A stretch of 64,000 bases of DNA from an uncultured Flavobacteriales bacterium. GTDB taxonomy: Bacteria > Bacteroidota > Bacteroidia > CAIKAF01. The notes under the pieces are model-generated. The model worked only from the letters and a program-made list of their open reading frames with translations, was not told the origin of the DNA and ran no database searches. The position numbers were made by a program, and so were the translations under genes. This document shows, piece by piece, positions 17,461-50,955 of this stretch (the first letter of the stretch is position 1; each line of letters begins with the position of its first letter). Location: positions 1-64,000 of the forward strand of contig CAILUT010000009.1 of the NCBI GenBank assembly GCA_903837495.1, in the 5' to 3' direction.

Positions 17461-17612
17461 CGGGGCTGCGCCCCCGATTGAACCGGCATTGGCTGAACGG
17501 GAAAGCCAGCCGGCCTTTGCCGAGGAGGCGACCAGGGGGAGCCACCGCAGGCAAACAGGCCGGCAGCTTGACCGAAAGCCAATACAGGTGAAAGCGGGAA
17601 TTGGCGCCCAAA
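17461..17612 (+). repeat. Structured intergenic repeat, copy B
   Basis: gaggcgaccagggggagccaccgc core; GCCGGCCT(17509-17516)/AGGCCGGC(17557-17564), TTTGCC/GGCAAA, ATTGGCT(17488-17494)/AGCCAAT(17577-17583). Confidence 0.8.
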
Positions 17613-19965: not shown

Positions 19966-22950
19966 ATGTCTGAAGTCAAAACACCGAGATTAAGTAAAGT
20001 TGCCAAAGATTTGAATGTTGGAGTCGCCACTTTGGTGGAAACCCTCAACAAACTTGGACACTCTATTGAGTCCAATCCCAACACAAAAATTTCGGAAGAA
20101 CTTTATTTAATTCTGTGCAAAGAACACCAATCGGATGTTCAAGCAAAGGAGAAGTCTCGCCAAATGAGCGGAAGTCCAGCTCCTAGGGAAACCGTTACCA
20201 TCGAGGATGTCAAAAGGACAGAGCCTCAGCATGTGTACGATGAGCCTCAGCAGGAAATGCTGATTAAAGACATTAGCCTTTCAACGCCGATGATTCCTGA
20301 GCCCGAACCGGCCAAGGAAAAAACCGCCGTTGTTCCTACTCCTCCGCCTGCTCCTGAGGTCCCCGCGGCACCTTCTGTTTCCGCAGCCCCGGTTGTTCCC
20401 CTTGAGGTTGTTGGTTCTACAGAACCCGCTGCCCCTGCTGCAATCGAGGTGCCTGCGCCCGCTCCCGAGGAGAAACCCCAGGTAGCCGGATTTAAGGTGT
20501 TAGGAAAAATTGATTTGGCTCCCAAAAAGCCGGCTAAAAAGGCCGAACCACAGCCCCTTGTACCCACGCCGGCCCCCGTTCAAAAAGAAGAACCTAAGGT
20601 TGCCGAACAAGCAAAACCACTGGACCAATCTGCTCCTGAAGATCCAGAAACACCCGCCGTCCTAGCCCCCGCCGCGGAAGTCCCTACCGTTCCGCAGCCC
20701 GATGCTGCCCCCGAAGTGTACCGTGCCGCTGCCAGCAAGTTAGATGGCCCGACCATTATCGGGAAAATTCAGCTTCCTGCGGCCGGAGACCGCCGTTCAG
20801 ACGACAAAACCAAACGGAAACGAATTACCAAAGAAGGCATTAAAAGGCCTACTCTTTTGGGCGGGCAAACCCCAGGTCAAGGACAATCCAGCCCAGGGCA
20901 AGGCGGCCCCGGACAAGGCGGTCCCGGACAACGCGGTCCCGGTCAATTTCAACGCGGTCCCGGCCAACCCGGACAGCCCGGCCAACGCGGCCCTTCTGGC
21001 GCACAACGCGGACCCCGAAAAGACATTCGTCCCGATATTAAGGTTGAACTTACCGAAGAGGAAATCCAAAAGCAAATTAAGGAGACCTTGGCTCGCCTCA
21101 GCGAACGAGGAAAGTCCAAATCGGTAAAAATGCGACGCCAAAAGAGGGACGGCATCCGCGAAAAAATTCAAAACCAAGCCGAAGCCACCGAACGCGAAAG
21201 CAAAATCCTGAAGGTAACCGAATTCGTTTCAGCAAACGAACTCTCCCAAATGATGGACGTTCCAGTAACCGAAATTATTTCGGCCTGCATGAGCCTAGGT
21301 CTCTTTGTTTCCATTAACCAACGGTTGGACGCCGAAACCATTCAAATTATTGCCGAAGAATTCGGACATGAAATCAAATTCGTTTCGGCCGATACCGAAG
21401 ACGCGGAGGAAGAAGAAGTAGATAGCCCAGAATCCCTGAGCGACCGCCCCCCCATTATTACGGTGATGGGACACGTTGACCACGGTAAAACCTCGCTGCT
21501 CGATTACATTCGAAAAGCCAATGTTATTGCCGGAGAAGCCGGTGGCATTACACAGCACATCGGAGCTTACGGCGTTACCTTAGAAAGCGGAAAACAAATT
21601 ACTTTTATTGATACCCCCGGACACGAAGCTTTTACCGCTATGCGTGCCCGAGGTGCCCAATTGACCGATGTAGCCATTATTGTGATTGCTGCCGACGACT
21701 CGGTGATGCCCCAAACTATCGAAGCCATTAACCATGCCAAGGCCGCCAACGTGCCCATGGTTTTTGCCATCAATAAAATGGACAAACCCGGAGCAAATCC
21801 CGAAAAAATTCGAGAAGCCCTGGCCAACATGAACCTGTTGGTCGAAGATTGGGGGGGGAAATACCAGTGCCAAGAAATTTCGGCCAAACAAGGCATGAAC
21901 ATCGACGCGTTGTTAGATAAAGTACTGCTGGAGGCCGAAATCCTAGAACTGAAGTCCAATCCCGATAAAAACGCCCAAGGGGTAGTTATTGAAGCTCAAC
22001 TTGATAAAGGTCGAGGATACGTGGCCACCCTGCTGGTGCAGTCTGGTAGTTTGTCTATGGGCGATGTGGTGCTGGCTGGTCAATACAGCGGGCGCGTTAA
22101 AGCCATGTTCAACGAGCGCGGTGTACCCATCAAAAAGGCTGGCCCTGCCATGCCCGTGCGGGTCTTGGGCTTGAACGGTGCGCCACAAGCCGGCGATAAA
22201 TTTAAGGTCATGGACGACGAACGCGAAGCCCGTGAAATTGCTACAAAACGCCAGCAATTGCAACGCGAACAAGGCCTTAGAACCCGCAAACACATTACCC
22301 TTGACGAAATTGGACGACGCATTGCCATCGGTGATTTCCAACAACTCAACATCATCATCAAAGCCGATACCGACGGTTCTGCCGAGGCCCTCACCGATTC
22401 GCTGCTCAAACTCAGCACCGACAGCATTCAGGTTAATATCATCCATAAATCAGTGGGTGCAATCAGCGAAAGCGATGTGATGCTTGCCTCTGCCTCTGAC
22501 GCCATTATTCTTGGATTCCAAGTACGCCCAAGCCCTGCGGTTCGACGTCTAGCCGAAGCCGAAGAAATCGACATTCGAACATACTCCATTATCTATCAGG
22601 CAATTGACGAGGTTAAAGCCGCCATGGAAGGCATGCTTGCGCCCGAGTTTGAAGAAAAAGTAATGGCCACCGTCGAAGTACGCGATGTCTTCAGCATCAC
22701 CAAAGTAGGCACCGTTGCCGGCTGTTACGTGACCGATGGTAAAATCAGCAGAAACCACAAAGTCCGAATTATTCGCGACGGAATCGTTATGCATACCGGC
22801 AAACTCAGCAGCCTAAAACGCTTCAAAGACGACGTCAAAGAAGTCGCAACCAGCTACGAGTGCGGCCTTACCATCGACCGCTTCAACGACATCAAAGTGG
22901 GCGATATCATCGAAGCCTTCGATGAGGTTGAAATCAAGCGCAAGCTCTAA
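19966..22950 (+). CDS. infB: Translation initiation factor IF-2
   Basis: [44 protein letters not shown]; Pro/Ala-rich N-terminus. Confidence 0.96.
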
Positions 22951-22963
22951 TTCCCTTTTTTTG

Positions 22964-23113
22964 GGGCGGGATACCGGGCTTTCTCCGGTAGTCCGCGGTG
23001 CTCAGTGGCAGGTCCAGCGGCCTTGCGGTGGCTCCTGAAGTCGCCTCCGCGGCACGCGGAACCTGGCACTTCGCCCCTTGCGGGCTACCGGTTCAATCCC
23101 GCCCGCGGGCGGC
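22964..23113 (-). repeat. Structured intergenic repeat, copy C (reverse orientation)
   Basis: ggggcgggataccgggctttctccggtagtccgc...gcggtggctcctgaagtcgcctccgc...gggctaccggttcaatcccgcc. Confidence 0.8.
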
Positions 23114-31381: not shown

Positions 31382-31511
31382 GGAAAGTCTGTTAATGTGC
31401 CCACAAAAATAGAAGAAATGCCCTAGGCTAAGTTGGCTTTTTCTTAATTTAATGCAGAAAGTTTATCTGCTACCCTATAGGCATGGGTGTAAGCCTATTC
31501 TAAGTTGGCAG

Positions 31512-32621
31512 TCAAACGGCGGTTTGATTGGGATTTCGGGCAATAAATCCCCCTCCAATTACATCTTCGCCTTCATACATTACTGCCGATTGGCCGGGGG
31601 CAATAGCTTCAACCGGGTGCTCAAAAACCACCTCTAACAGTTCCGGTCCTGGATACAGGGTGGCTAATGTTCCCCGGTCTTTATACCGAATCTTGACAAC
31701 AGCTTGTTGACCCTCTTGAATTTGCTCGTATTTTAACAGGTTTAGGTTGCGAACAAACATGGTTTGCTGCAACAAATCTTCTCGGCTTCCAAGCACGACC
31801 TCGTTGGTTTCAGGTCGAATTCCAGTAACAAATGCGGGTTCACCTAGAGCAATGCCCAATCCTTTGCGTTGGCCAACCGTAAAAAAAGGATAGCCAGAAT
31901 GGGTTCCAAGTATTTTGCCGCTTTTATCTACAAACTGACCGTTCTGCATGCGGTTGGTTTCTTCCGGTTTTTTTCGCTGCAAAAAGCCCCTGTAATCGTT
32001 GTCGGGTATAAAGCAAATTTCGTAGCTCTCTGCCTTTTTTGACAAACGTTCGAACCCAGCTTTTGAGGCCAATTCTCGGATTTCGGTTTTTTTGAACCCC
32101 CCAATGGGGAAAAGCGTCTTGGCTAAAGCCGACTGACTCAGCCCCCACAGCACATAGCTTTGGTCTTTTTGAACGTCCAAACCCGCACTTACCACATACC
32201 GCTGCCCTTCTTTTCGAACGCGGGCATAGTGTCCGGTTGCAATAAATTCGCAATCCAATTGTTCGGCTCGCTTCACCAAGGCATCCCACTTGATGTGGGT
32301 ATTGCACAAAACACAGGGGTTGGGCGTTCTGCCCGCCAAATATTCTTCAACAAAATTTTCGATGATGGCCTCACCAAATTCCGAGCGAATATCTAAAATG
32401 TAATGCGGGAAACCCAATTCAACAGCCATGGCTCTGGCATCGTTGATGTCGTCTAAACTGCAGCAGCCCGTCGTTTTTTTGCCCCCTCCGCTTTGGGCAT
32501 AATCCCAAGTTTTCATGGTTACCCCAATGACCTCGTACCCTTGATGATGCAGCAGCATAGCGGCCACCGAACTGTCAATGCCGCCGCTCATCGCAACCAA
32601 AACCCTTCCTTTTTTACTCAT
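31512..32621 (-). CDS. mnmA: tRNA-specific 2-thiouridylase MnmA
   Basis: RVLVAMSGGIDSSVAAMLLHHQGYEVIGVTMKTWD; RTPNPCVLCNTHIKW. Confidence 0.95.
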   Translation of the reverse strand: MSKKGRVLVAMSGGIDSSVAAMLLHHQGYEVIGVTMKTWDYAQSGGGKKTTGCCSLDDINDARAMAVELGFPHYILDIRSEFGEAIIENFVEEYLAGRTPNPCVLCNTHIKWDALVKRAEQLDCEFIATGHYARVRKEGQRYVVSAGLDVQKDQSYVLWGLSQSALAKTLFPIGGFKKTEIRELASKAGFERLSKKAESYEICFIPDNDYRGFLQRKKPEETNRMQNGQFVDKSGKILGTHSGYPFFTVGQRKGLGIALGEPAFVTGIRPETNEVVLGSREDLLQQTMFVRNLNLLKYEQIQEGQQAVVKIRYKDRGTLATLYPGPELLEVVFEHPVEAIAPGQSAVMYEGEDVIGGGFIARNPNQTAV

Positions 32622-40080: not shown

Positions 40081-41268
40081 ATGAAGTATTGCTTGATCCG
40101 CGAACGAAAATCCCCACCCGATTTCCGATGTCCTTTAAATCCTGAGCAGGCAATGGCTTTCGCTAAAAGCAACTCCAACGTCTCAATTTGGGCCGAATCT
40201 TCGGCCCACCGCTGCTTTTCCGATGCCGAGTTTTTGCAACAAGGCATAGCCTTGGCCGAAGGAAAGCCCGCCCAGGTCTATTTGGGCATTAAAGAGGTCC
40301 CACCCTCTGCACTGATTCCCAATTCTACCTATTTCTTTTTTTCGCACACCATCAAACGGCAACCGCAAAATCGGGAACTTCTGCAAGCTGTGCTGCAAAA
40401 CAACATTCGCCTTATCGATTACGAATGCCTGCGCGATCCCCAAGGGCAACGCCTCATCGGCTTTGGGTTTTATGCCGGGGTGGTGGGGGCCTACAATACC
40501 CTGCGCACGTTTTCCTTAAAAACCCAACAGCAGCCACTGCCGCATTCTGCCCAGCTGCAAAGTCGAACGCACATGGATCAAGTTCTATCCGATTGGTCGG
40601 TTCCAGACCTGCGCATTGTACTTACCGGGCAAGGGAAGGTGGCTCAGGGCGCGCTGTCTATTTTAAAGCAATTGAATTTTATCCAGCTTGAACCCCATCA
40701 GGATTTCCCAGAAACGGGACGCTGGGTTAAAATCATCGATTACCATCAATACAATGTTCGCATTCAAGACGGGGGCTTCGATGCGGCCGAGTTTTATGCC
40801 CAGCCACAGCTGTACCAAGCCCGTTTTTTGCCTTTTTTATCCAACGCTCAAATTCTTCTCACAGGGCATTTCTGGTCTGCCGATTCTCCCCGCTTTTTAA
40901 GCCCAGAACAGCTCGGCAGCACTCAGATTTTGGTTGTGGGCGACATCAGCTGCGATGTCAACGGCCCTTTGCCCTGCACGCTGCGGCCCTCTACTTTACA
41001 GGAACCCGCCTATGGTTGGGACAAAATCAGCTTTCAGGAAACCGATTTGATTAAGCCTTCCGCCATCGCGGTTATGGCGGTCGATAACCTGCCTGCGGCA
41101 TTGCCGGCCGATGCTTCCAATCATTTTGGTACAGCACTGCTCCCCATTCTTCAAGCCTTTGAAAAACAGCCCAATGCCCCCGTTTTTGAGCATGCTACCA
41201 TTGCCCAAAATGGAGCACTTATGCCCAAATACGCGTATTTACAGGCCTGGGTTGATGGGTTGGAGTAG
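40081..41268 (+). CDS. Alanine dehydrogenase/saccharopine dehydrogenase-like NAD-dependent oxidoreductase
   Basis: N-term LIRERKSPPDFRCPLNPEQA; YLGIKEVPPSALIPNSTYFFFSHTIKRQPQNRELLQ; GVVGAYNTLRTF. Confidence 0.75.
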   Translation: MKYCLIRERKSPPDFRCPLNPEQAMAFAKSNSNVSIWAESSAHRCFSDAEFLQQGIALAEGKPAQVYLGIKEVPPSALIPNSTYFFFSHTIKRQPQNRELLQAVLQNNIRLIDYECLRDPQGQRLIGFGFYAGVVGAYNTLRTFSLKTQQQPLPHSAQLQSRTHMDQVLSDWSVPDLRIVLTGQGKVAQGALSILKQLNFIQLEPHQDFPETGRWVKIIDYHQYNVRIQDGGFDAAEFYAQPQLYQARFLPFLSNAQILLTGHFWSADSPRFLSPEQLGSTQILVVGDISCDVNGPLPCTLRPSTLQEPAYGWDKISFQETDLIKPSAIAVMAVDNLPAALPADASNHFGTALLPILQAFEKQPNAPVFEHATIAQNGALMPKYAYLQAWVDGLE

Positions 41269-41410
41269 GGCGGCTGCGGGCTTTCGCAGGTAGTCCTCGG
41301 TGCTCGGCTCCGCCGGCAGCCGGCTGCGGGTAGCTCCCAAGGTCGCTCCCACAGCCCCGCGCCGGCAGGGCCTTGCCCCTGTGGGCTACCTTGCTCTATC
41401 CCTGCCGCTC
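41267..41410 (-). repeat. Structured intergenic repeat, copy D (reverse orientation, abuts upstream stop codon)
   Basis: gggcggctgcgggctttcgcaggtagtcctcgg...gggtagctcccaaggtcgctccc...gggctaccttgctctatccctgccgc. Confidence 0.7.
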
Positions 41411-41589
41411 TCATTCCTTACCCCTTTGCATTAAAAAAAGAACCCAGTCAAAGCCGCTGTGTTTATAAATTCACACCCAAGGCTTTGATGTTGAGTGCAA
41501 AAGAGCAGTAAAAAGGGTGAAACGCTTTTTGTTTGAAGGTATTTCTTTTTACAAACTAAACATTTTGAAGGTCTTGGGGTTATACCCAC

Positions 41590-44877: not shown

Positions 44878-45027
44878 GGCCTGCGGTAGGGATTGAACCG
44901 AGTAGCCCGTAAAGGCCTGGGGCCTGCGTGCGCGCGACAGGCAGGGCGACCTTGGGAGCCCCTGCCTGGCCGCTGCACGCAAGCCCCAGGACTGCGGACT
45001 ACCGGTGAAAGCCCGGCAACCGCCCCC
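44878..45027 (+). repeat. Structured intergenic repeat, copy E
   Basis: CCTGGGG(44916-44922)/CCCCAGG(44984-44990), GCGTGC(44926-44931)/GCACGC(44975-44980), AGGCAGGG(44939-44946)/CCCTGCCT(44960-44967); conserved ends. Confidence 0.85.
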
Positions 45028-45035
45028 AAAAACCC

Positions 45036-50644: not shown

Positions 50645-50794
50645 CGCCGCCTGCGGCAGGGATTGAACCGGATAGCCGGAAAGGTTGCCGGCTTGCTGCC
50701 CGCGTGGCGCGGAGGCGACTTTAGGAGCCACCGCAAGCCCGCTGGGCAGCTGGCCGGCAGCCGCGGACTATCGGTGAAAGCCCGCAGCCGCCCC
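50645..50794 (+). repeat. Structured intergenic repeat, copy F
   Basis: GCCGGC(50687-50692)/GCCGGC(50753-50758), GCTGCCC(50695-50701)/GGGCAGC(50744-50750), GCGG(50709-50712)/CCGC(50731-50734); core gaggcgactttaggagccaccgc. Confidence 0.85.
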
Positions 50795-50866: not shown

Positions 50867-50881
50867 TGTTTATTGAAGTTG

Positions 50882-50955
50882 TAGCGAGGACGGGAGTTGA
50901 ACCCGTGACCTCAGGGTTATGAATCCTGCGCTCTAACCAACTGAGCTACCTCGCC
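50882..50955 (-). tRNA. tRNA with CAT anticodon (tRNA-Met class); CCA not encoded
   Basis: ggcgaggtagctcagttggttagagcgcaggattCATaaccctgaggtcacgggttcaactcccgtcctcgcta folds as cloverleaf. Confidence 0.93.

Follow-up and report, generated by a model that had tools for sequence, protein, structure and literature searches.

The stretch of DNA analysed here, referred to as the window, comprises the first 64 000 nt of contig C9 in the 2.5-Mb genome (G000) of an uncultured, lake-dwelling Flavobacteriales bacterium (Bacteroidota). Using a covariance model built from 32 element copies, with filters off, we found six copies of a hairpin element of ~147 nt in the window. Copies A and B differ from the other window copies in their end sequence, the fold being identical. 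The features concerned are listed below, with orthologs given for the genomes G002, G003 and G005.

672–817, + strand: copy A, second end type, 60.4 bits; ortholog in G002 (130/146 identical)
17463–17609, + strand: copy B, second end type, 51.6 bits, with a weak match to Rfam Flavo-1; orthologs in G002 and G005
22965–23111, − strand: copy C, 129.8 bits, 14 nt past the stop of a + strand ORF ending at 22950; orthologs in G002 and G005
41268–41413, − strand: copy D, 106.5 bits, abutting the stop of a + strand ORF ending at 41268; orthologs in G002 and G005
44878–45025, + strand: copy E, one long interrupted hairpin of 148 nt, 143 bits to model R1; orthologs at the same place in G005, G002 and G003
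44892–44896, + strand: basal internal loop of copy E, 5' side, ATTGA (A-G, U-A, U-A, tandem G-A)
44946–44959, + strand: apical hairpin of copy E, GCGAC-CTTG-GGAGC, with the second tandem G-A and a YTTR-type loop
45007–45011, + strand: basal internal loop of copy E, 3' side, GAAAG
45026–45032, + strand: A-rich, G-poor tail between copy E and the convergent stop codon
45036–46982, − strand: convergent ORF of 648 aa, whose stop lies 10 nt past the 3' end of copy E
50648–50793, + strand: copy F, 156 bits, between an ORF (start 50426, − strand) and tRNA-Met (50881–50955, − strand); orthologs in G005 and G002, and in G003 truncated at the contig end

All six window copies are matched in G002 (DNA 69–80% identical) at the same place and in the same orientation, and five were found in G005. 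The window also contains a 67-nt direct repeat (1–67 and 120–186, 96% identical, spacing 119 nt).

In G000 the element occurs at ~100 copies per Mb, sited just past gene ends. Its density, measured on continuously covered stretches of genome, is 94–113 copies per Mb, which extrapolates to about 235–290 (roughly 250) copies per genome. When G000 was scored with the covariance model, 150 of the 897 candidates were evaluated and all were copies of the element, so that at least 150 are present; each of three species has at least 150 copies, and a fourth has 145. Among the matches listed are close relatives, all of them lake Flavobacteriales genomes from metagenomes: VGMT01 (K_DeepCast), CAIKAF (LaPlata bin-1703) and JAQCBQ (casp15). 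A diverged type, with 32–46 scored matches each, is found in two larger genomes of the same genus (G001 and G004; L063 and L064), where it also forms an outward-pointing pair, with the second end type. A short version (GGGATAGGAGCAAGTAGCCCGC...GCGGACTACTGCGGATAGCCCG) in G023, from another family of the class (L067:1501–1585), matches the element's model; the superfamily thus extends past this family. Our search of the literature on intergenic repeats in Bacteroidetes gave nothing matching the element.

The element is a single long hairpin of about 50 pairs. The initial annotation had quoted stem arms for copies E, F, A and B, and every one of them was recovered at its place; in copy E these are the outer arms CCTGGGG (44916) and CCCCAGG (44984), the middle arms GCGTGC (44926) and GCACGC (44975) and the inner arms AGGCAGGG (44939) and CCCTGCCT (44960). 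The comparison with shuffled controls that it had proposed also came out in favour of the fold, with −90.8 kcal/mol (z = −5.25) for copy E and −91.8 kcal/mol (z = −5.61) for copy F against dinucleotide shuffles. We judged covariation by pair counts, shuffles and slid alignments of 50 copies, together with the ortholog test described below. In the 50 aligned copies 96.4% of the pair cells are paired, compared to 80.9 ± 0.4% in the shuffles; 37 of the 50 pairs show two-sided changes (21.5 in shuffles), and the covariation score is 0.382, whereas shuffles give 0.100 ± 0.006 and no slid version exceeds 0.07. Chance is excluded as the source of the pairing. When 295 distinct copies, taken from two species, are compared, Watson–Crick pairs make up 86–99% at most of the variable stem positions, with up to four pair types; the pairs 22-126, 30-119 and 41-110 are less well paired. 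All these alignments were fitted to the model and are therefore biased towards structure; the ortholog comparisons depend less on the model.

Several parts of the fold are close to invariant. A15 stands opposite G133 in all 295 copies, the basal tandem G·A (GA/GA) is present in 292 and the one near the tip in 294, and a conserved C-A mismatch (C29 opposite A120) occurs in 276. The tip loop is TTTA in 136, CTTG in 88 and TTCA in 22 of the 295 copies. An A-run of at least 5 within 25 nt 3' of the element was found for 194 of 294 copies regardless of the direction of the next gene, and so looks like part of the element.

Flanking sequence identified 106 orthologous element pairs between G000 and G005, 72 of them by both flanks. 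For the compensation test we used 76 conserved pairs with an identity of at least 0.88. Changes on both sides of a base pair were counted 73 times (7.2 expected), 55 of them from Watson–Crick to Watson–Crick; changes on a single side numbered 98 and 93. The compensated pairs fall into 52 runs (50 of one, one of two and one of three pairs) and, being isolated, look like separate events. The median identity of the element is 92.8%, compared to 71.8% for the preceding 60 nt and 59.6% for unrelated sequence aligned alike, and the element is more conserved than its flank in 65 of the 72 ortholog pairs. Substitution rates are 1.7% in the loops, 4.9% at paired positions, 14% at other unpaired positions and 23% at the outer ends. 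Selection on the fold, which the initial annotation had read from paralogous copies, is well supported, and on stronger evidence than such copies: isolated compensated changes at orthologous sites, far more than expected. It is further backed by an element much more conserved than its flanks, by near-invariant unpaired loop residues and by G-T pairs about twice as frequent as A-C (see below). At some sites, among them L014/L127 and L028/L079, the copy resembles a paralog more than its ortholog, which suggests gene conversion or replacement.

Counts of 1×1 mismatches over the whole element are dominated by fixed C-A and A-C positions, and we therefore limited the comparison of G·T with A·C to variable, well-defined pairs. 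At 36 such pairs G·T exceeds A·C by ~2:1 (148 vs 70), and single changes between orthologs gave 63 G·T and 29 A·C (p = 5e-4). The asymmetry is graded as moderate because a sign test on the individual pairs falls short of significance (19 pairs favour G-T and 12 A-C, p = 0.28); it rests on cell counts and ortholog changes. With this moderate evidence the folding strand is the + strand, i.e. the strand of the initial annotation; the + strand orientation is also that in which Rfam holds Flavo-1. Copies whose two neighbours are both read from the minus strand show the excess too (42 vs 12), so read-through from a neighbour is not needed. In fact, both the structural integrity and the G-T excess are independent of which flanking genes run through the element, and a role that requires read-through from a particular neighbour therefore fits poorly. 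Tolerance of G·T does not tell RNA from single-stranded DNA.

The orientation of the element is fixed, its 3' end facing a convergent stop codon. With genes called simply as longest ORFs, which adds noise to these counts, 172 of the 276 copies with enough flank have a convergent gene next to their 3' end (median distance 25.5 nt), and a stop codon lies within 30 nt of the 3' end in 96 copies vs 34 for the 5' end. Copies at most 300 bp apart point outward (tail-out) in 16 of 16 pairs, as expected if each copy belongs to its own gene end. We saw no replication-strand bias (42 vs 35).

The initial annotation had argued that divergence without selection would break the pairing of copied elements. 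The selected fold stands; the argument as worded does not, since template switching can copy one hairpin arm onto the other, by which hairpins are made and maintained with compensatory changes (PMC8794818), and it is further weakened by the sites that look replaced by paralogous copies. A functionless palindrome, its pairing maintained by template switching in replication, would suit an element that is long and almost perfectly palindromic. If pairing were restored in this way, mismatches should vanish as well, but A15/G133, the two tandem GA motifs and C29/A120 are still there. The loops also accumulate far fewer changes than the remaining unpaired positions, and neither the G-T excess over A-C nor the fixed outward orientation would be expected, which makes this origin improbable. 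We consider it equally improbable that the element acts as a 3'-UTR hairpin in the mRNA of the adjacent convergent gene (minus strand), protecting the mRNA or slowing translation as some REPs do. The 96 copies with a stop codon no more than 30 nt away would fit such a role, and a REP no more than 15 nt from a stop can lower translation (PMC12306157). However, the folded strand opposes that mRNA strand, and a simple 3'-UTR hairpin is therefore disfavoured: the wobble tolerance belongs to the opposite strand, and the conserved loops, if read on the mRNA strand, would turn into C-U mismatches.

A non-autonomous mobile element (MITE- or SINE-like and A-tailed) that favours T-runs after genes, with a fold needed for mobilisation and copies that are recent or still mobile, is a more serious candidate, though in our view a doubtful one. 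It would account for the high copy number, for the 3' A-run, for the paralog-like copies at some orthologous sites and for one site that is filled in G002 (G002:C20:42615–42761; L088:2615–2761) and empty in G000 (window ~31456–31537) and G005. At this one filled/empty site, however, there is no clear target duplication. The same sites are occupied in other species at 72–79% DNA identity, copies that have settled have diverged far less than the sequence around them, and we found no viral contig with the element. A Y1 transposase or reverse transcriptase as mobiliser of the present copies was rejected: the three genomes of the genus that we examined for it (G000, G002 and G005) have no reverse transcriptase, and Y1 transposases, of which G002 has three and G003 two, are missing from G000 and G005. 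Active mobility is disfavoured because of these absences and the stable positions. A multi-copy family of trans-acting small RNA genes would agree with Rfam, which types RF01705 as 'Gene; sRNA', and with the RNA-like fold of the + strand; we nevertheless regard it as quite unlikely. Upstream of the + strand there is no enrichment of the promoter motif TANNTTTG, which speaks against an own promoter; a terminator T-run lies downstream in only 13 of 294 copies, and the stem sequences vary freely, so that there is no common unpaired seed. In the transcriptome of Flavobacterium psychrophilum, Flavo-1 matches are indistinctly sense or antisense, many lie in no transcript, and no functional clue emerged (PMC9723704).

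The explanation that we put forward, giving it an even chance of being right, is a high-copy, vertically inherited extragenic element, an enlarged relative of Flavo-1, with REP/BIME-like action in cis at gene 3' ends. Our data show the fold with its covariation, its conservation in place, its orientation and, on moderate evidence, its strand; the mechanism, in which a host protein recognises the G·A loops and the element acts in cis where the gene ends, is inferred. The + strand folds into a single long hairpin with two tandem-GA motifs, a C-A mismatch and bulges, followed by the A-rich tail. The conserved GA loops of this folded strand might then be recognised by a host protein. The strand itself could be single-stranded DNA, or RNA that runs into the gene at its 3' end from the opposite direction. 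As a result, the gene may be insulated from opposing transcription, or supercoiling may be handled there. The copies would have spread in the past and been renewed in part through gene conversion.

A bolder and rather unlikely version is that the element constitutes a genome-wide mark of gene 3' ends, with several hundred single-strand folds that carry invariant tandem-GA loops, point towards the stop codon and keep their positions from species to species; a dedicated host protein would read them as single-stranded DNA or antisense RNA. If true, the element would represent a previously undescribed class of gene-end elements and give the Flavo-1 superfamily its first functional interpretation. 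With roughly 250 copies per genome, several species, conserved positions, a probable strand, a fixed orientation and invariant loops, function is directly testable. The element also offers a clean natural system in which to separate selection from template switching in hairpin evolution.

Flavo-1 (RF01705) entered Rfam in 2010, where it is listed as a 'small RNA' with no assigned function. Of the 149 genomes of the class that we sampled, 56 contain it. In other Bacteroidia genomes such as G079, with 109 matches, it is a high-copy dispersed repeat, which fits poorly with the label of a small RNA gene. Flavo-1 and the element have the basal motif GAUUGAAGCGG ... GCGGAAAGC in common, and the basal internal-loop core of Flavo-1 (ccG-A-UU-GA ... 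GA-AA-G-Cgg) is present in 292–295 of the 295 element copies. Both end types at other Bacteroidia loci, the A-rich 3' tail and the very high copy number are likewise shared. A long element from a sister genus (L068) matches both models, its Flavo-1 score being 33.7 bits. In contrast, the element measures 147 nt whereas Flavo-1 has ~80 nt (~76 positions, with a short apical stem), and it adds a conserved apical half (tandem GA, YTTR loop and fixed bulges). Its 3'-end orientation is strong but that of the 38 Flavo-1 loci examined is weak. The element also stays below the gathering cut-off of 42 bits: the survey of sampled genomes gave no Flavo-1 matches in G000, and the best score in the window is that of copy B, which reached 24.4 bits when 301 bases were searched (E 0.0042). 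A known Rfam family was rejected for the window, where none reaches its gathering threshold.

An intrinsic terminator was rejected for either strand. The element resembles one as a GC-rich hairpin at gene ends, but a T-run follows the hairpin in only 13 of 294 and 11 of 295 copies on the two strands. REPs lie downstream of genes and between convergent genes, tolerate G-T pairing and are suspected of gene conversion (PMC3733652). The element is similarly extragenic, present in hundreds of copies 3' of genes and between convergent ones, tolerant of G-T and suspected of gene conversion. However, REPs have 20–40 bp and an unpaired GTAG or CGTC tag, whereas the element has 147 nt and no such tag, the GTAG that it contains lying inside a stem; also, GTAG REPs come with a proposed Y1 (RAYT) transposase, and G000 and G005 have no Y1. 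The description that fits best is thus an enlarged relative of Flavo-1, specific to the genus and REP/BIME-like in its placement, which by their defining thresholds is a member of neither.
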